Source: Truepera sp. (GTDB taxonomy: Bacteria; Deinococcota; Deinococci; Deinococcales; Trueperaceae). Taken from it: a stretch of 43,051 bases of DNA. The notes beneath the pieces were generated by a model, which did no database searches, was not told the origin of the DNA, and saw only the letters and a program-made list of their open reading frames with translations. The translations under genes and the position numbers were made by a program. Shown here one piece after another: positions 16,512 through 24,762 of this stretch. The stretch is taken from NCBI GenBank assembly GCA_018333895.1, contig JAGXSJ010000042.1, forward strand, positions 1 to 43,051. The letters are read 5' to 3'. Each line of letters starts with the position of its first letter. The first letter of the stretch is position 1.

Positions 16512-16724
16512 ATGGGTTCCACAAGGACCAACATCGTGATTGACGACGAGATGCTAGCCATGGTCATGCGCCGGTACGGCCTGAGCACCAAGACGGAGGC
16601 CGTGGCCCTGGCCCTGAAACGGCTCGCCGGCGAGCCCATGACGCGCGAAGAGGCGCTAGCGATGCGCGGTGCAAAGGCGCTGCAAGGCGTTCCGGAAGAC
16701 ACTCGGCCGCCTTCAGGCGAGTGA
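16512..16724 (+). CDS. vapB: VapB-type antitoxin (ribbon-helix-helix)
   Basis: A 70-residue antitoxin. The start [34 protein letters not shown] is a ribbon-helix-helix DNA-binding domain, and the acidic/Pro tail would contact the toxin. The frame begins at GTG16497, but ATG16512 fits the family and lies 6 nt after a TATGCT -10 box. Its stop overlaps the toxin's GTG start (GTGA at 16721-16724). The antitoxin is intact although its toxin is broken. Confidence 0.85.
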
Positions 16725-16921
16725 AAAGGGTTCTAGTCGACACTTCTGCCTGGGTGGAGTTCGACCGGGCAACCGGCAGCAGCGCCGAGGCCCGCCTGAC
16801 GGCACTGATTGCCTCAGACGGTCCGGTGGCCGTGACGGAACCGGTGATCATGGAAGTGCTGGCTAGGGCTCGTAACGACCAAAGGGAGCGAGACCTGCGG
16901 CGACTCCTCTTGCGCTTCGAA

Positions 16922-16940
16922 ATTACTCGGGCGAAGCCTT
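16922..16940 (+). repeat. 19-bp element inserted in vapC
   Basis: ATTACTCGGGCGAAGCCTT. It is the frameshifting copy; the flanks rejoin to an uninterrupted VapC frame when it is removed. Confidence 0.9.
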
Positions 16941-17113
16941 CTGATCCCTTTCGACGCAACCACCGACTTCGACAGCGCCGTACGTATCTACCGAACCTGC
17001 CGAGCACAAGGGATCACGCCTCGTGGCCTGGTCGACTGCCTGATCGCCAGCGTGGCCATTCGCGCCGAAGCCACGCTCCTGGCCTTCGATCGCGATCTCG
17101 CCGCCATCGCCAC

Positions 17114-17132
17114 AAGGCTTCGCCCGACAATT
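17114..17132 (-). repeat. 19-bp element, inverted copy in the vapC tail
   Basis: On the plus strand AAGGCTTCGCCCGACAATT, the reverse complement of the 19-bp unit with the GT-for-AC variant. It lies in the toxin's last coding part and reads in frame as TRLRPTIV. Confidence 0.85.
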
Positions 17133-17171
17133 GTGATGCATCTGCACCTCGACGAGGCCAGCCTGAGCGCA

Positions 17172-17209
17172 ATTACTCGGGCGAAGCCTTATTACTCGGG
17201 CGAAGCCTT
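17172..17209 (+). repeat. Two tandem 19-bp elements
   Basis: Two exact head-to-tail copies of the unit. Because 19 is not a multiple of three, successive copies are read in successive frames. All three plus-strand frames of the array are free of stops. Confidence 0.92.
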
Positions 17210-17244
17210 TCAAGTGACAGCCCTCAAACAATCTCGCCTCCGAA

Positions 17245-17320
17245 ATTACTCGGGCGAAGCCTTATTACTCGGGCGAAGCCTTATTACTCGGGCGAAGCCT
17301 TATTATTCGGGCGAAGCCTT
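17245..17320 (+). repeat. Four tandem 19-bp elements
   Basis: Units start at 17245, 17264, 17283 and 17302. The first three are exact and the last has one change (ATTATTCGG). A decayed partial unit may follow (17321-17336). The array ends about 40 bp before the 3' end of the convergent helicase gene. Confidence 0.92.
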
Positions 17321-17357
17321 AAACTCGGGGCGATTCAGCAAGAGAGTTTTGTCAGGT

Positions 17358-20087
17358 TCAGGTACGCCCCTTTTTGTCCAGCGCCAACAAGGCCTGCCCA
17401 AGTATCTCCTCCGGCACCCGGATAATCTCCTTGTGCCGCAAGAAGACTAGCTGCACCTGCGGCGTCACGCCGCGCACCGCCTGAATCGCCTGGAGGTAGA
17501 CCGCCAACTGAAAGTGATACTGCTCAGGGCTTACCTCCTGGTCGGTCTTGTAGTCCTCTAGGGTCCACTGCTCGCCCACGCGGTAGAGGCGGTCGATGAT
17601 CCCCTGCCAGACAGTGGTGCCTTGCGGCAACGCCATCGGCAGTTCGGGGTAGTCCTCATCGCGCGCTGCGACAAGCGGGAGCTTAGTGCCGAGCAGGCTC
17701 TGGTAGTTCGTTAGCAATTCCTTAACCTCCTGCAAAAGCTCCTGCTGTTCGTCGTAGGCAAAGGGGAACATCACCTCTTGGGCGCGCAAGTTTTCGATAT
17801 GGACAGGATCTTCGGCGCGCCAGCCCTGGCTGATGGCGTAGTGGACCAGCGTGCCGACGGTAGCGGCGCGGCCGGGGAGCGCTTCACCTTCGTCCGGGTC
17901 GGAGATGGGGAGCGGTTCGTGGATAGCCTCTTTGAAGCGTGAAGGGGAGAAGACGGGCGGATAGGGGTGGGGCTTGAAGGCATCGTCGATATACGGGGCG
18001 GGGGTAAGTTGGTTGTCGGTTAACGGCTGAGAGCTAACAGCTGCCACTGGTTGATAGGGGTGCGTCTGCAACACGAAGTCGGGGCGGTCGTAGGGCTTGG
18101 CGTCGGGGCCTAGCTCCATGGCGGCGAGCACCTTGGCCCAGCCGCCGGGCTTGCCGTTCTTGACACTGCCGGTCATCACCAGCACGTCGCGCGGGCGGCT
18201 GGCAGCGACGTAGAAGAGGCGGTAGCCCTCCTGCTCAGCGCGGGCCTCGATGGCCTCGCGGGCGGCCGCAAAGCCATCTGAGCTTTTGTGATGGAGATGG
18301 CCATCGTCAGGGGTGAGAATTACGCTTTGCGGAGGGTGATAGGTCGTCCGGCCCAGGTCGAACACCCCGACCACCGGCCACTCCAATCCTTTGGCGCGAT
18401 GAACGGTCAGGAGCTTCACTCCCTCGCCGCTTTGCGGCACGTCGCCGGCATCGGCCTGCCGGGCAAGCAGCTCGAGCCGGTCCAGCAAGATGGCCAGGTC
18501 ACCGGGGGGCTGCTCGGCTACGGTGAACAGCAAGGCGTCCACGTTTTCGCGGGCGCGCGAGTCCAAGAACTCCACATAGCGCTTACCGTCGATGAAGGGT
18601 TCGCGGATCAAGAACTTAAGAGCCTCTAGGGGCACGCCCGCCACCTGGGCCTTGATGGCCTCATAGCGGCGATAGACCGCCGGGTGGGCTTTGAGCTGCT
18701 CCAGCGGCTCATCGGCAGCTAGCACGGCATCGGCCTCGGCTAGCGACAGTTGGGCCCAGGGGCTGCGCAGCCAGGCGCCCAGGCTCACACCCTGCGGGTC
18801 GATCCCGACCCGGAGCGCGTGATAAAGATCGCGCAGCTCGAGCCGGTCATAGTAGCCCCGCCCCTGAATGAGCACATACGGCAGCCCGGCTGCTAACAAC
18901 GCCTCCTCCAGCACCCTTAAGCCGTCGTAGCTGCGGGCCAGCACCGCCATGTCGTTAAAGTCGTAGCCGTGCGCGTCGTGTAGAGCCCGCAGCCGCTCGG
19001 CTAACAGCCGCGCCTCCTGCCGCCGCAGATCGGCGATACCGGCTTCGCCCACCACCCAGTGCAGCTCTAGGCGGCCCTGCTTGTCAGCTTGCGGCCCAGC
19101 CGGACTCACCTCGGGGGCCTCTTCCGGGCCAAAGCCCTGGCCGCCCGCTGCCAACGTCTCGGTCAGGCGATTAAGAAAGCGCGTCAGCACCCTGGCATGG
19201 CGCCGCGTCTGCTGCAACGGCGGGAGAACGACTCCGCGCTTAAGCGCCCGGCGGAAGACCTCCACGTCGGCGTTGCGAAAGCCGTAGATCGACTGTTTGG
19301 GGTCGCCCACCACCTCCACGGCTAGGCCGCCCGCCTCAAGCTGCTCGAAGACCTGTCCTTGCAGAGGGTTGACGTCTTGAAACTCGTCAACGAGCACCAG
19401 GCGATAGCGACTGGCTAGGCGGGCTAGCAGCTTGGGCGAGCGGACCATCATCAGGGCGCGCCGCTCCACCTCGCTAGGGGGCAGCAGCGCGGCCCCTAGG
19501 CGCACCGTAAAGCGCGCATAGGCCGCCTCCCAGAGCTTGAGCAGGGCCTGGTTGCGGGGGTCGGCAGCGGCGGCGAAGCGCTCGGTCAGTGAACGTTGCG
19601 AGAATAGCTGGAGCAGTATCTCGGCCTCCGGGCCCAGCAGCGTCCGTGCCGGGTTAAGGCCGTGGCCCGGTTCGGCGGCCAAGAACAGCACCGTCTTTAA
19701 CTCCTCCTCGAACAGCGCCGTAGCCTCCCACTCGCCTAGCACCGTAAAGTCGGGGTCGAGGCTAAGCAGCGGCGCCACTAACCGCAGCGCTTCGATCAGA
19801 AAGCCGTGGATGGTAGTTAGGGTCGCCCCGTCAAGCTCGCGCCGCGCCTCCTCGAAGGCCGGCCGCTCCTCTTCGGTCAGGGTTGCTAGGCCGCCGAGGT
19901 AGCTCCCGTGCTCGAGCAGCTCGTAGAGCGCTGCGCCAACGCGCTGGCGCAGTTCGTCGGCGGCTTTGCGGGTAAAGGTCACCCCGGCGATGCGGCGCAG
20001 AGGGGTCCCCGAGGCGATCAGCTCCAGGTAGCGCAAGACCAGGCTGGTGGTCTTGCCGGTACCGGCGGAGGCGACGCGGACTTTCAT
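17358..20087 (-). CDS. UvrD/RecB-type ATP-dependent helicase-nuclease (AddA-like)
   Basis: A 909-residue SF1 helicase with a C-terminal RecB-type nuclease. The helicase motifs are in order: Walker A ASAGTGKTT (6-14), FTRKAADELRQRV, TIHGFL, DEFQDVNPLQ, GDPKQSIYGFR and LLTVHRAKGLEWPVV. Near the end, WQGIIDRLYR and LEDYKT with QLAVYLQAI supply the metal-binding D...DYK residues of the nuclease. Such proteins process double-strand breaks, usually with a partner (AddB, AdnA or RecC); none is present here. A low-complexity stretch before the nuclease (SSQPLTDNQLTPAP) may be repeat-derived. The last codons approach the 19-bp array. Confidence 0.9.
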   Translation of the reverse strand: MKVRVASAGTGKTTSLVLRYLELIASGTPLRRIAGVTFTRKAADELRQRVGAALYELLEHGSYLGGLATLTEEERPAFEEARRELDGATLTTIHGFLIEALRLVAPLLSLDPDFTVLGEWEATALFEEELKTVLFLAAEPGHGLNPARTLLGPEAEILLQLFSQRSLTERFAAAADPRNQALLKLWEAAYARFTVRLGAALLPPSEVERRALMMVRSPKLLARLASRYRLVLVDEFQDVNPLQGQVFEQLEAGGLAVEVVGDPKQSIYGFRNADVEVFRRALKRGVVLPPLQQTRRHARVLTRFLNRLTETLAAGGQGFGPEEAPEVSPAGPQADKQGRLELHWVVGEAGIADLRRQEARLLAERLRALHDAHGYDFNDMAVLARSYDGLRVLEEALLAAGLPYVLIQGRGYYDRLELRDLYHALRVGIDPQGVSLGAWLRSPWAQLSLAEADAVLAADEPLEQLKAHPAVYRRYEAIKAQVAGVPLEALKFLIREPFIDGKRYVEFLDSRARENVDALLFTVAEQPPGDLAILLDRLELLARQADAGDVPQSGEGVKLLTVHRAKGLEWPVVGVFDLGRTTYHPPQSVILTPDDGHLHHKSSDGFAAAREAIEARAEQEGYRLFYVAASRPRDVLVMTGSVKNGKPGGWAKVLAAMELGPDAKPYDRPDFVLQTHPYQPVAAVSSQPLTDNQLTPAPYIDDAFKPHPYPPVFSPSRFKEAIHEPLPISDPDEGEALPGRAATVGTLVHYAISQGWRAEDPVHIENLRAQEVMFPFAYDEQQELLQEVKELLTNYQSLLGTKLPLVAARDEDYPELPMALPQGTTVWQGIIDRLYRVGEQWTLEDYKTDQEVSPEQYHFQLAVYLQAIQAVRGVTPQVQLVFLRHKEIIRVPEEILGQALLALDKKGRT

Positions 20088-20159: not shown

Positions 20160-20215
20160 AAGGCTTCGCCCGGCAATAAGCCCTGCGCACAAGTCGCAGG
20201 GTCGCCCAACCATTC
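20160..20215 (+). repeat. Composite element: inverted 19-bp unit plus 38-bp hairpin unit
   Basis: AAGGCTTCGCCCGGCAAT is followed directly by the 38-bp unit (20178-20215), whose arms CCCTGCG and CGCAGGG flank loop CACAAGT. The tail TCGCCCAACCATTC varies slightly from other copies. Confidence 0.9.
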
Positions 20216-20350: not shown

Positions 20351-20377
20351 CCCTACAGCAGCCCCGCCCCCCCTCGG

Positions 20378-20397
20378 TCCCCCCCAAGGTTGGGGGG
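20378..20397. repeat. C/G-run hairpin at the MFS 3' end
   Basis: Arms CCCCCCAA (20380-20387) and TTGGGGGG (20390-20397) around GG, followed by another G run. It is translated as the Pro-rich MFS tail on the minus strand. It may be another repeat family or a barrier to the end of transcription. Confidence 0.55.
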
Positions 20398-20655
20398 ATG
20401 AAAGGGGGGGGGCGGGTAGCGCCTGAATAAGCGCACCATAGCCAGCAGCGCGGCGGCCATCAGCAACGCACCGGCAAAAAAGGGCGCACCGGGGATGCTC
20501 AGCGGAGCTACCGTGGTGAAATAACCGAACAGTCCGGTCGAGATCAGCGGGGCGATCACGGCGCTGAGACTAAGGAGTGAGGTAAGGGAGCCCTGCACCC
20601 GGCCTTGTTCCGAGGGGGGGACCGCCCCAGCTACCAGCCCCTGGATGACTGGAGC

Positions 20656-20714
20656 ATCCTGCGTCCTGCGCACATCCTGCGTCCTGCGCACAAGTCGCAG
20701 GATGTGCGCAGGAC
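20656..20714. repeat. Duplicated CTGCG element with 19-bp inverted arms, inside the MFS gene
   Basis: An 18-bp unit ATCCTGCGTCCTGCGCAC occurs twice in tandem (20656-20673, 20674-20691). The second copy lies in a large hairpin whose 19-nt arms (20663-20681 and 20696-20714) are perfectly complementary. The site coincides with the break in the MFS reading frame. The core resembles the 38-bp hairpin unit. Confidence 0.9.
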
Positions 20715-21670
20715 GCCCAGAGCGGTGAACACAATGACTGCCAGCATCATCCAGCCCTGATAGGCCAAGCCGTAGAGCAAAAATGCCACTGTCGAGATGG
20801 TGAGGCCCAGTAGGACGGCCCGCCGCTCGCCAAGTCGGGGGATAATCAGGCGTAATAAAAAACCTTGTACTAAGACGGCCATCACCCCTACTAAGGCCAG
20901 CGCCAAGCCGTTTTGCAGCTCGAGCCAGCCAAAGCGGTAGGTGGTGTAAAGCACCCAGACGCTCTCCAACCCGCGCTGGGCCAGCCCTAGCAAGACAAAG
21001 GCTACAGCCAGCCCCGCCACGATGGGGTAGATGCGGAGCTGCAATAGGCTTAGCGGGTTGGCCTTGTGCCAGGAAAAGGGGCGGCGCTTATCGGGCGGGA
21101 GCGATTCGGGTAGGATCAGTAGCCCATAGAGCCAGTTCAAGAGCGCCAACGTGGCGGCGGCGTAGAAGGGGAGGCGCGGCGAGATTGCTCCCAAGATCCC
21201 CCCCAGAGCTGGACCGAGGATAAAGCCAAGGCCGAAGGTCGCACCGACTAACCCGAAGTTCTGAGCGCGGTTTTGGGGGGTTGAGATATCGGCGATATAG
21301 GCGTTAACGGTGGTGATGCTGGCCCCCATGACGCCAGAGATTACTCGCGCCACGATAAGCCAGGTTAGATTAGGGGCCAAGGCCAGCAGCAGATAGTTGA
21401 TACCGAGGCCCAAGAGCGCGATGAGGATGACCGGGCGTCGGCCGAAGCGGTCCGAGAGCGAGCCCAGTACCGGAGCAAAGATAAACTGCATCAGTGCGTA
21501 GACCGCCACTAGGAAGCCATAAGTGAAGGCGGCTTGCGCGGCGCCACTGCTGGTTAGGTCGATGACGAGTCGGGGCAAAATGGGGATGATAAGCCCAAGG
21601 CCGATGACATCGAGCAGCAGAGTAATCAGGATAAAGGCCATGCCGGCCCGGTGCTGCCTCATAGAACTCC

Positions 21671-21744
21671 AAGGCTTCGCCCGACAATAAGGCTTCGCCC
21701 GACAATAAGCCCTGCGCACAAGTCGCAGGGTCGCCCGACCATTC
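21671..21744 (+). repeat. Composite element: two 18-bp units plus 38-bp hairpin unit
   Basis: AAGGCTTCGCCCGACAAT occurs at 21671-21688 and 21689-21706, then the 38-bp unit at 21707-21744. It lies 8 nt upstream of the MFS start, between the Shine-Dalgarno and the divergent methyltransferase, so it could affect MFS expression. Confidence 0.92.
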
Positions 21745-21817
21745 AGGACGCTGCCAGCGCTTAAGATACCGCACTTGGCAGGGCTCCCCACAAGGCTTTG
21801 CCCTGAGGCCTGCCCTG

Positions 21818-21856
21818 TCCTGCGGTTTACTCGCATCCTGCGGTTTACTCGCAGGA
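21818..21856 (-). repeat. Duplicated CTGCG element, GTTTACT loop
   Basis: TCCTGCGGTTTACTCGCA occurs twice (21818-21835 and 21836-21853). The second copy completes a hairpin with arms TCCTGCG and CGCAGGA (21836-21856). It is the reverse complement of the 20129 element, and the two lie on opposite sides of the MFS gene. Confidence 0.85.
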
Positions 21857-21882
21857 GAAGTGAAGGGGCTCAGCCCAAAGGG

Positions 21883-21894: not shown

Positions 21895-23700
21895 GTGGCA
21901 AAGCTAAGCCGAGCGAAAGCCGAACGTAAGGCCCTGGGCGAGTTTTATACCGCCGAGCCGGTAGCGAAGTATCTGGTTGACTGGGCTCTTAGGCAGCCTA
22001 CAGACAGCATCTTAGACCCAAGCTTTGGTGGCGGGGTGTTCTTGCAGGCGGCAGCGGAGCGGCTACGGCAGTTGGGTGGCAGTATTGACAACATCCACGG
22101 TGTCGAAATAGCTGAAGCGGCATATAACCGGGTGGCCCTCTCCTTCGATTTCGCTCAGGACAGGACTATTGGTGAGGCGCGCCTCCATCGCGCCGACTTT
22201 TTGGCGCTCACACCTGGCCAATTGGGGCTATTCGACAGCGTGGTGGGCAATCCCCCCTTTATCCGCGCCCCGCGCCTGAGCGCTGCTAGCCGGTCGCTGG
22301 CTCTGAGCCAGGCGGCAGCGCAGGGTGTGCGGCTCAGTAAGCGCTCGAGCGTCTGGGCGCCCTTCTTGGTCCACGCCAGCGCCTTTGTCAAGCCTGGCGG
22401 GCGCATGGCCATGGTGGTGCCAGCCGAGCTAGGACACGCCGTCTATGCCAGAGCGGTCATCGAGCACTTAACCCAAAGCTTCGCCCAGGTCACGCTGCTC
22501 AGCCCTCGCGAGCGCCTCTTTCCCGAGCTGGATCAGGATACTTTGCTGCTGTTGGCAGAAGGTCGAACATCACTCCCTCGGCAAGCCCTGCCCCATAAGG
22601 GTTGGGACGGCGCCTCGCTTCGCTCGGGTCGCGGGGTGGTGGTTGGTCAGTGGTTGGATCAAGCGCTAACCGTGGCGAGTGGCGAGTGGCGAGTGGCTAT
22701 CAGTAAGCCCTGCGCACAAGTCGCAGGGTCGCCTGACGATTACTTGCCAGCTAACAGCTCCTCTCGGCTGGTCGGCGCCTTGCTGCCGGAGCGTGTCTTG
22801 GCCCTGTACCAGGAGCTAGCCGTGCAGCCGCGCGTCAGGCGGCTGGGCGCGCTGGCCGAGGTCGGTATCGGCTACGTCACCGGTGCTAATCGCTTCTTTC
22901 ATCTCAGCCCCGCTGAGGTGGCGCGATGGGAGCTGCCGCCGGAGGCGCTGCGTCCGGCAGTGTGGCGGAGCCGTGCGCTAGTGGGCTTGCGGCTGAGCCG
23001 CCAGGACTGGCAAAGGGCGTGTGCTAGCGGTACGGCGGGTTACCTGCTGCAGGTAAACGGCGATCCGCTGAAGCCCTGCGCACAAGTCGCAGGGTCGCCC
23101 GACAATTCAGAAGCGGTCTGGCGCTACCTGGCCCACGGCGAGGCAAGCGGCGTGGCGCAGGGTTATAAGGCGCGCGAGCGGCGCTGCTGGTACCAGGTCG
23201 GCAACGTCAAGGTGCCCGACCTGCTGCTGGCCGCGATGGGCTTACGGCTAGCGCTGGTGACCAATGAGGCTAACGTGACGGTGCCGAATACGCTGCACGT
23301 GGTGCGGCTCTACCCTCACGCCCAGACGACGGCCTTGGACCTAAGCCTAGGGTGGCAGAGCACACTGACGCGCCTTAGTCTGGAAGTAGAGGGGCATGCG
23401 CTAGGCGGCGGGTTGCTCAAGCTCGAGCCCAGTGAAGCTAGGCGGGTGCTCGTAGCGTTGCCGGATCCGAGCCCTGTCCTGAGCGAAGCCGAAGGGGAGG
23501 CGAGAATGACTTTTGATGAGCTCGAGCCGGAGTTGGATCAACTCCTCCGGCAGCGCCGCTTTAGCGAGGCCAGGGAGCTGGCCGACCAGGCGATACTGCA
23601 AGGCGGACTCGGCCTAACGCAGCGAGAGTGCCGCTTGCTGCGCGAGGGCTACCGCCTGCTGTGTGAGCGTCGGCTCAAACGCGCCGCAGCTTTTAGCTAA
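21895..23700 (+). CDS. N6-adenine DNA methyltransferase (Eco57I/TaqI-like) carrying several repeat-derived peptides
   Basis: A 601-residue SAM-dependent methyltransferase, with GEFYTAEPVAKYLVDWAL, motif I DPSFGGGVFL (41-50), VEIAE, and the catalytic NPPF (119-122) that marks amino-methylation of adenine. The C-terminal half has the target-recognition look of type IIG/orphan enzymes (GIGYVTGANRFF, CWYQVGNVKVPDLL). No restriction nuclease is adjacent. Four segments come from dispersed repeats: FDFAQDR (84-90), KPCAQVAGSPD twice (271-281 and 393-403), and SPVLSEAEGE (526-535). All keep the frame. Whether the enzyme still works is unclear because two insertions lie in the recognition region. Confidence 0.85.
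   Translation: MAKLSRAKAERKALGEFYTAEPVAKYLVDWALRQPTDSILDPSFGGGVFLQAAAERLRQLGGSIDNIHGVEIAEAAYNRVALSFDFAQDRTIGEARLHRADFLALTPGQLGLFDSVVGNPPFIRAPRLSAASRSLALSQAAAQGVRLSKRSSVWAPFLVHASAFVKPGGRMAMVVPAELGHAVYARAVIEHLTQSFAQVTLLSPRERLFPELDQDTLLLLAEGRTSLPRQALPHKGWDGASLRSGRGVVVGQWLDQALTVASGEWRVAISKPCAQVAGSPDDYLPANSSSRLVGALLPERVLALYQELAVQPRVRRLGALAEVGIGYVTGANRFFHLSPAEVARWELPPEALRPAVWRSRALVGLRLSRQDWQRACASGTAGYLLQVNGDPLKPCAQVAGSPDNSEAVWRYLAHGEASGVAQGYKARERRCWYQVGNVKVPDLLLAAMGLRLALVTNEANVTVPNTLHVVRLYPHAQTTALDLSLGWQSTLTRLSLEVEGHALGGGLLKLEPSEARRVLVALPDPSPVLSEAEGEARMTFDELEPELDQLLRQRRFSEARELADQAILQGGLGLTQRECRLLREGYRLLCERRLKRAAAFS
22140..22164 (+). repeat. 24-bp element in frame in the methyltransferase
   Basis: TCCTTCGATTTCGCTCAGG plus ACAGG, read as SFDFAQDR at residues 83-90, between motif I and the NPPF motif. 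Confidence 0.8.
22672..22699 (+). repeat. 7-bp tandem repeat, four copies
   Basis: GTGGCGA three times then GTGGCTA, directly before a 38-bp element in the methyltransferase gene. A 7-bp unit makes copy-number change frameshift the gene, as in phase-variable methyltransferases. Confidence 0.8.
22705..22742 (+). repeat. 38-bp hairpin element in frame in the methyltransferase
   Basis: Arms CCCTGCG and CGCAGGG, loop CACAAGT, slightly decayed tail. It is read as KPCAQVAGSPD, starting exactly at codon 271. Confidence 0.9.
23071..23108 (+). repeat. 38-bp hairpin element, second in-frame copy in the methyltransferase
   Basis: A full consensus copy with tail TCGCCCGACAATTC. It is read in the same phase as the first copy (KPCAQVAGSPDNS, from codon 393). 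Confidence 0.92.
23473..23496 (-). repeat. 24-bp element, inverted copy in the methyltransferase
   Basis: CCTGTCCTGAGCGAAGCCGA plus AGGG is the reverse complement of the 20327 copy. On the gene strand it is read as SPVLSEAEGE. Confidence 0.85.
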
Positions 23701-23710
23701 AGGAAGCGGG

Positions 23711-23748
23711 GAATTGTCGGGCGACCCTGCGACTTGTGCGCAGGGCTT
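23711..23748 (-). repeat. 38-bp hairpin element, inverted exact copy after the methyltransferase
   Basis: Exact reverse complement of the copy at 23071-23108. It begins 11 nt after the methyltransferase stop. The hairpin could also act on the 3' end of either convergent transcript. Confidence 0.92.
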
Positions 23749-23859: not shown

Positions 23860-24762
23860 TCAGGCGAGCTGCCGGGCCAGCAGCAGCGCTCCTTCAGCGG
23901 GGCTATAGTGCGCCGGTTGGAAACGCTCCCTAAAGCGTGCCGGCGCCAGCGCCAGCAGCTCCTCGGCCAAGGCTAAGGCCAGGTTGCCGGTCAGCGAGAA
24001 GGGCAGCGGCGGGGTGTTGCGCTCGAGCGAGCGCAGGTGCTGCACTAGTTGTGACAGCGCGCGCTGCTTGAGCCGCCGCGCCACCTCATCGCCGGCTCCA
24101 GCGGCCTCCAACACGCGCGGCGCCCAGCTAGCAAAGTCGCCCGGGCCAGCGGTGCGGACCCGCTCGAGCAGATCGTCTGCGGTCGGCCCCCACACTCCCA
24201 ACACCGCATCGCTAAGGGCAGTAGCCGGGCCGCGGCCGTCCCAGTGCTGCAAGGTCGCTCGCACCGCCTCGCGCCCCAGCCAGGCCCCGCTACCTTCGTC
24301 GCCGACCTCGAAGCCCCACCCCCCCACGCGATAGCGTTGCCCCGCACTATCGACCGCGTAGGCGATGCTGCCGGTGCCAACTGCTAGCAGCGCCCCCGCC
24401 TCCTGCGCCAGCGCCCCGACTAGCGCCACGTGAATGTCGGGCTCGAGCCTAATCGCTGTGAAGGGGTGCGCCACGCTCAAGAACCGCTCGCGGTCGGCAG
24501 CGCGGCCCACCCCGGCCAAGCCCAGGCAGGCGTACACCGGCGCGTACCCCTCGGTAAGCCCTGCGCACAAGTCGCAGGGTCGCCCGACAATTCCGGCTCT
24601 CCGTAAGGCCTCAAGGATGGCGCGCCAGGCCGCCTCAGCACCGACGGTGCGCGGATTGGCTGGTCCCCCCTCGGCCCGGCCCAGCACCGCGCCATCGTGC
24701 CCTGCCACCACCACCCGGCAGCCGCTTCCCCCGCCATCGACACCGACAAAGAGCCTGTTCAT
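23860..24762 (-). CDS. BadF/BadG-type amino-sugar kinase (N-acetylglucosamine or MurNAc kinase-like)
   Basis: A 300-residue ASKHA-fold kinase. The phosphate-binding loop FVGVDGGGSGCRVVV is at the N-terminus, then PANPRTVG, CLGLAGVGR, VALVGALAQEAGALLAVGTGSIAY and GGWGFEVGDEGSGAWLGR, the pattern of GlcNAc/MurNAc kinases. Residues 57-69 (GIVGRPCDLCAGL) are encoded by an inverted 38-bp element, an in-frame addition between helix one and the CLGLAG strand. The start abuts the stop of dppC, so the kinase is the last gene of the dppABC-kinase operon. Peptide uptake plus an amino-sugar kinase suggests import of cell-wall fragments. Substrate is inferred. Confidence 0.85.
   Translation of the reverse strand: MNRLFVGVDGGGSGCRVVVAGHDGAVLGRAEGGPANPRTVGAEAAWRAILEALRRAGIVGRPCDLCAGLTEGYAPVYACLGLAGVGRAADRERFLSVAHPFTAIRLEPDIHVALVGALAQEAGALLAVGTGSIAYAVDSAGQRYRVGGWGFEVGDEGSGAWLGREAVRATLQHWDGRGPATALSDAVLGVWGPTADDLLERVRTAGPGDFASWAPRVLEAAGAGDEVARRLKQRALSQLVQHLRSLERNTPPLPFSLTGNLALALAEELLALAPARFRERFQPAHYSPAEGALLLARQLA
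24556..24593 (+). repeat. 38-bp hairpin element in frame (antisense) in the amino-sugar kinase
   Basis: Consensus copy. Relative to the gene it is read backwards, giving GIVGRPCDLCAGL rather than KPCAQVAGSPD, so both strands of the element are open. Confidence 0.92.

Follow-up and report, generated by a model that had tools for sequence, protein, structure and literature searches.

The N6-adenine DNA methyltransferase gene at positions 21895 to 23700 (forward strand) of the window, by which we mean the whole analysed stretch of 43,051 nucleotides, carries in its reading frame several peptides that are very probably by-products of very short dispersed repeats. These would have spread through the genome as selfish DNA, similar to Rickettsia palindromic elements (RPEs) or intragenic REPs, and have been kept at tolerant sites. 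The reading is carried by the demonstrated dispersal of the repeat units, their absence from relatives, the exact lengths of the inserts, in-frame placement in about 20 genes and the breakage of a frame by a 19-nt variant.

The 601-residue product of the gene, delimited by its open reading frame, Pfam and 18 full-length homologues, matches the N6_Mtase, Eco57I and M_Eco57I_C profiles with scores of 46, 27.6 and 27.2 bits that each exceed the respective cut-off, and motifs I and IV (DPSFGGG and NPPF) are conserved in the alignment with the homologues. These domains and motifs mark the predicted protein as an Eco57I-like N6-adenine methyltransferase. The sequence-only reading of this stretch had pointed out four peptides in a single frame of the gene, and translation of 21895-23700 returns all of them: FDFAQDR at 22144-22164 (codons 84-90), KPCAQVAGSPD at codons 271 and 393 in the same phase (starts 22705 and 23071), and SPVLSEAEGE at 23470-23499 (codons 526-535). 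Its proposal that each is encoded by a dispersed element holds as well, as the 22-mer core of element B, GCCCTGCGCACAAGTCGCAGGG, has 16 exact genome copies and element C, CTGTCCTGAGCGAAGCCGAAGG, has 8 copies within two mismatches, against 0 for the controls (a reversed pattern in the case of B). Repeat searches place the 36-nt element B at 22705..22740 (forward strand, read as KPCAQVAGSPDD, with the first KPCAQVAGSPD) and at 23071..23106 (forward strand, read as KPCAQVAGSPDN, with the second KPCAQVAGSPD, within the M_Eco57I_C domain match), and element C at 23473..23496 (forward strand, read as PVLSEAEG within SPVLSEAEGE) and, as a copy with two mismatches read as FDFAQDR, at 22142..22164 (reverse strand). 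All four of the elements counted in the earlier reading are present, but four is an undercount. Element D (CTCGCTTCGCTCGGGTC), identified through dispersed 13-mers with a consensus from a 1.0 Mb sample, lies at 22614..22633 (forward strand) and is read as part of ASLRSGRG, and a short (GCGAGTG)n tandem, read as VASGEWRVA, lies at 22672..22697 (forward strand) in a region without counterpart in most homologues.

The core of the smallest unit, A, is the 18-nt sequence AAGGCTTCGCCCGACAAT, which owns the commonest repeated 12-mer in the 1.0 Mb sample of genome stretches; the 92 exact A cores in this sample are the genome-wide count and compare with 2 control matches. Unit B corresponds to A with GCT swapped for a 21-nt hairpin, CCCTGCG-CACAAGT-CGCAGGG. 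Both occur alone or head to tail, and the 60 distinct arrays that we read are almost all 18, 36, 54, 72 or 90 nt long, to which a rarer 19-nt variant unit ending in GAGTAAT has to be added. Whole A and B units are thus multiples of three, and they are stop-free in most frames. A T directly follows the unit in 53 of the 60 arrays and a G occupies the fourth position in 51, which suggests either a preference for flanks of the TnCG type or an element that extends a little beyond its tandem period. Upon folding, unit A forms a 3-bp stem (z = -0.1 against shuffles) and is hardly palindromic, while unit B forms a 7-bp stem (z = -2.6). A strong hairpin formed by the shared GCGAAGC motif was considered and dropped, since unit A folds no better than its shuffles. 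The hairpin in B belongs to the genome's REP-like CCTGCG family and is flanked by cgacc/ggctt in 16 of 18 cases; related hairpins with an AGTAAAC loop often carry CGTC, overlapping the stem. For element D, the 1.0 Mb sample contains as many as 19 further copies of its 13-mers.

We aligned the methyltransferase with 18 homologues of full length that belong to its own family and order (34-47% identity); a search for close relatives among genome contigs yielded only homologues of 33-37% identity. None of the four insert peptides occurs in any of the 18 aligned sequences. The sequence-only reading had named the recurrence of the same peptides at the same positions in distant taxa as a sign of native sequence, and four more distant homologues are likewise without them. 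Measured between fixed anchors, the query exceeds the homologue median by 11 residues at the second KPCAQVAGSPD and by 10 at SPVLSEAEGE, in both cases surpassing every homologue by 7. In the composite region with the first KPCAQVAGSPD the excess is 24 residues, with one of the 18 homologues longer, and at FDFAQDR it is 2. Because of this small excess FDFAQDR appears to be the weaker case of insertion, and the peptide may replace native sequence or partly consist of it. The small change at FDFAQDR and the variable length among homologues around the first KPCAQVAGSPD, where one is longer than the query, are what could be expected if the peptides were native segments of the methyltransferase family merely resembling repeats. 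We consider this highly improbable, given their absence from all 18 homologues and from the four more distant ones and the presence of the same DNA in unrelated genes, between genes and in different frames. In an AlphaFold model built with five sequences (pLDDT 44), FDFAQDR coincides with a low-confidence loop, and the model is too poor for locating the other three inserts.

Analysis of the stop-to-stop open reading frames around the arrays, together with a Pfam scan, yielded about 20 genes with in-frame units, the methyltransferase among them. One and the same DNA is translated in no fewer than four frames (as KASPDN, LSGEAL, VGRSL or CRAKP, according to strand and phase), and conservation therefore concerns the DNA itself. 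For arrays whose flanks are both clearly coding, the frames on the two sides agreed in nearly all cases, the exceptions being one 19-nt and one N-terminal case. Pfam matches run across the inserts in a lycopene cyclase (54 nt in frame, E = 1e-79), an amylase, a histidine kinase, a thiamine pyrophosphokinase, DnaN and a BadF kinase. In the amylase, which is maltodextrin-glucosidase-like, the 54 inserted nucleotides equal exactly an 18-residue gap against 5bn7. The BadF/N-acetylglucosamine-kinase-like gene (23860-24762, reverse strand) adjoins the methyltransferase and contains element B at 24556..24591 (forward strand), which ORF translation reads in frame as IVGRPCDLCAGL; its Pfam match (6-296) spans the insert, and a gap falls near the site in comparison with the solved kinase 1zc6. 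Four tandem A units lie in frame in a P-type ATPase gene, and two 90-nt arrays in a second N6-methyltransferase (contig C101). PabBC carries the repeat in the linker that joins its two enzyme domains. Further in-frame units occur in the thiamine pyrophosphokinase, the histidine kinase and an E3-binding-domain protein, in MFS, LptA-like, TPR and hydrolase genes, and in a 3339-residue open reading frame that is TamB-like by eye only.

Judged by sequence, the strongest and most telling case of in-frame insertion is dnaN, the gene of the sliding clamp (L164:7368-8627, contig C114), which bears four such insertions; in a profile search of the genome, no other gene matched DNA_pol3_beta. In an alignment with family relatives, whose identity reaches 66% in the N-terminal half, the insertions of 6, 30, 13 and 6 residues appear as clean gaps with well conserved flanks. 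The first is a full 18-nt A unit, and the comparison with the Deinococcus-type clamp 4trt shows a gap of 6 residues there; CCTGCG-type repeats make up the second, the third is similar to element C and the fourth contains the A core in a variant unit. Going by the alignment, all of them would be expected to fall in loops. Since a single-copy essential dnaN is unlikely to be dead, in-frame insertion appears to be compatible with function. For Gmk of R. conorii, a peptide-adding RPE insert has reportedly been shown biochemically to be compatible with activity. We infer that the decorated proteins of the present genome are functional and that the effect of the inserts is near neutral.

Close to the decorated methyltransferase, a PIN gene (window 16544-17422) and an MFS transporter gene (20353-21869, reverse strand) are apparently broken by repeats. 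The PIN gene, which serves as a negative control, is shifted in frame by a 19-nt variant unit at 16922..16940 (reverse strand): residues 1-68 of the PIN profile match before the unit and residues 75-118 in another frame after it. Downstream of the gene, repeat search and array reading place a tandem cluster of 19-nt variant units at 17168..17339 (reverse strand). The MFS gene splits into two frames at a CCTGCG-hairpin palindrome (20661..20716), with the MFS_1 profile matched from 2 to 306 in one open reading frame and weakly in the other. From these two cases it follows that the units break genes if their length or place is wrong. Arrays of 18n nt lie in intact supported genes in 21 of 51 cases and those of the 19-nt variant in 0 of 9 (Fisher p = 0.02), a contrast that is only supporting, as the counts were assigned by hand and the 19-nt variant lies partly within larger repeats. 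In the model that we favour, whole-unit insertion would add 6 or 12 codons and keep the frame, and selection would retain those gene insertions whose sites tolerate their length and place, while the rest would be removed or pseudogenised.

The location of the methyltransferase in a repeat-dense stretch (17-25 kb), beside these two broken-looking genes, is also in line with a decaying gene that gathers repeats, as the sequence-only reading had suggested. This suggestion is not supported, as the gene shows no sign of decay, and we regard it as unlikely: the reading frame stays open throughout its 601 codons, DPSFGGG and NPPF are intact, and 96 of the 104 near-invariant positions are kept, a proportion within the 84-100% found for the homologues in a leave-one-out test; moreover, the single-copy dnaN bears as many insertions. 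The methyltransferase is probably still functional.

Two of the six reading frames hold 17 of the 21 gene insertions (chi-square p = 0.0003, with hand-assigned counts), a bias that could reflect peptide-level selection rather than simple neutrality. This bias, along with the location of the second KPCAQVAGSPD within the M_Eco57I_C domain match, would be compatible with inserts selected for their peptides, for example by altered target recognition or regulation. Such selection seems quite unlikely to us, as the inserts sit in functionally unrelated proteins and the frame bias is equally explained if harmful peptides were purged or if the units favour certain flanks (with TnCG following the unit).

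The units are found on more than 50 contigs of the genome. In the window, repeat searches locate B-type repeats of 36-38 nt at 20178, 21707, 22705, 23071 and 24556, and an inverted one at 23711-23748 (reverse strand), in the intergenic gap past the methyltransferase; array reading shows an A-B tandem at 20160..20213 (forward strand) and, supported by ORF translation, an A-A-B tandem at 21671..21742 (forward strand) at the start of the MFS gene. The genome is a metagenome bin of 178 contigs with 8% contamination, and several contig ends lie in repeats, features that could raise the suspicion of an assembly artefact. The probability of this is minimal: the inserts of 18-54 nt sit within unique flanks inside contigs, the units are spread over that many contigs, the overlapping contigs C86 and C153 (99.99% over 16.6 kb) contain the same two units, and the gaps against homologues equal the unit lengths exactly. 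Outside the genome, unit A (at most 1 mismatch) was found in 0 of 110 other Deinococcota genomes and unit B (at most 3 mismatches) in 0 of 150 genomes, neither occurs in the phage and viral contigs searched, and a literature search returned no published report of these units. Element C behaves unlike A and B, its 18-nt core CCTGAGCGAAGCCGAAGG being present in 9 other genomes from other families, in places beside or inside open reading frames (L195, L197, L199 and others), and by these matches this type of repeat spans distant lineages.

The likeness to RPEs proposed in the sequence-only reading applies to the behaviour of the units, as dispersed DNA adds in-frame peptides in about 20 genes including the single-copy dnaN, but not to their build. 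RPEs and the protein-coding palindromes of Wolbachia are dispersed, inserted in frame in conserved genes and also intergenic (PMC2229807, PMC10969869). The present units share with them in-frame insertion in conserved genes and peptides missing from homologues. RPEs, however, measure about 105-150 bp (PMC2229807), have 12-bp terminal inverted repeats and reside in obligate intracellular alphaproteobacteria, whereas the units described here measure 18 and 36 nt, lack in A (3-bp stem) as in B (7-bp stem) the long stem-loop with terminal inverted repeats, and belong to a Deinococcota host. As they are 18 or 36 nt rather than 100-150 bp long and the 18-nt unit is hardly palindromic, we conclude from their sequence that they are not RPEs by descent. 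Intragenic REPs with GTAG or CGTC tags are palindromes of 20-40 nt, single or grouped, that lie within genes of several species, among them replication and repair genes such as uvrA and dnaE, and the CGTC type is listed in five phyla, with no mention of Deinococcus found by text search (PMC3733652). Unit B, with 36 nt and a hairpin, fits this size and fold but unit A, with 18 nt and a weak hairpin, does not, and both are without a GTAG or CGTC end tag. ERIC/RU-1 and Correia elements are non-autonomous and sometimes fused in frame to genes (PMC2759123, PMC2229807); unlike the present units, they are 100-170 bp long with terminal inverted repeats and occur only occasionally in conserved genes. 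The phenomenon is known, while the 18-nt size, the modular structure, the host phylum and the fourfold-decorated clamp appear to be new.

The units would be selfish or slippage-prone DNA, with near-identical copies, tandem growth by whole units and a lineage-restricted distribution, and presumably move by transposition or by a copying process. Three matches to Y1 transposases are present in the genome; for unit A, no mobilising enzyme stands out as a candidate. A RAYT-like gene on contig C37 (L163) lies near three CCTGCG hairpins, with none of A or B nearby. Groups of three such hairpins are rare in random 300-bp windows (about 0.03%), and it is therefore plausible that a Y1 enzyme mobilises the hairpin portion of B. 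The RAYT-like protein itself carries about six GRPDAG-type repeats. A bolder proposal, which we put forward as speculative and doubtful, is that, of all dispersing DNA elements known to enter genes as a matter of course, the 18-nt unit would be the smallest. It would travel in single-stranded form, either through a Y1 transposase (RAYT or TnpA) or through template switching, and always add multiples of 18 nt, so that essential proteins such as the sliding clamp would lengthen in six-residue steps.

In-frame insertion of repeats had previously been associated mainly with Rickettsia and, as regards intragenic REPs, with a restricted number of species. The present case concerns an uncultured Deinococcota bacterium of ordinary genome size, with insertions of exactly six codons or multiples thereof. 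With four inserts in a single-copy dnaN, it can be tested directly how far an essential protein tolerates them, and the co-occurrence of 18-nt and 19-nt variants represents a natural experiment on frame selection. The findings also call for caution, as DNA repeats, and not protein innovations, underlie some of the lineage-specific peptides of metagenome proteins.

Other repeats are abundant in the same genome. In the 1.0 Mb sample we counted 667 occurrences of the palindrome GCTCGAGC, which is thus about 20-fold over the estimate from base composition and recalls cyanobacterial HIP1. Two families of CRISPR-like repeats, CCGGTTCATCCCCACAGGCGTGGGGAATAGG and CGTTTCAATCCCTCGTAGGAAGGCTAAAAACC, are abundant in the sample as well, and a MITE-like repeat of about 120-140 bp is present in more than 25 copies, on L143, L169, L176 and many other contigs.
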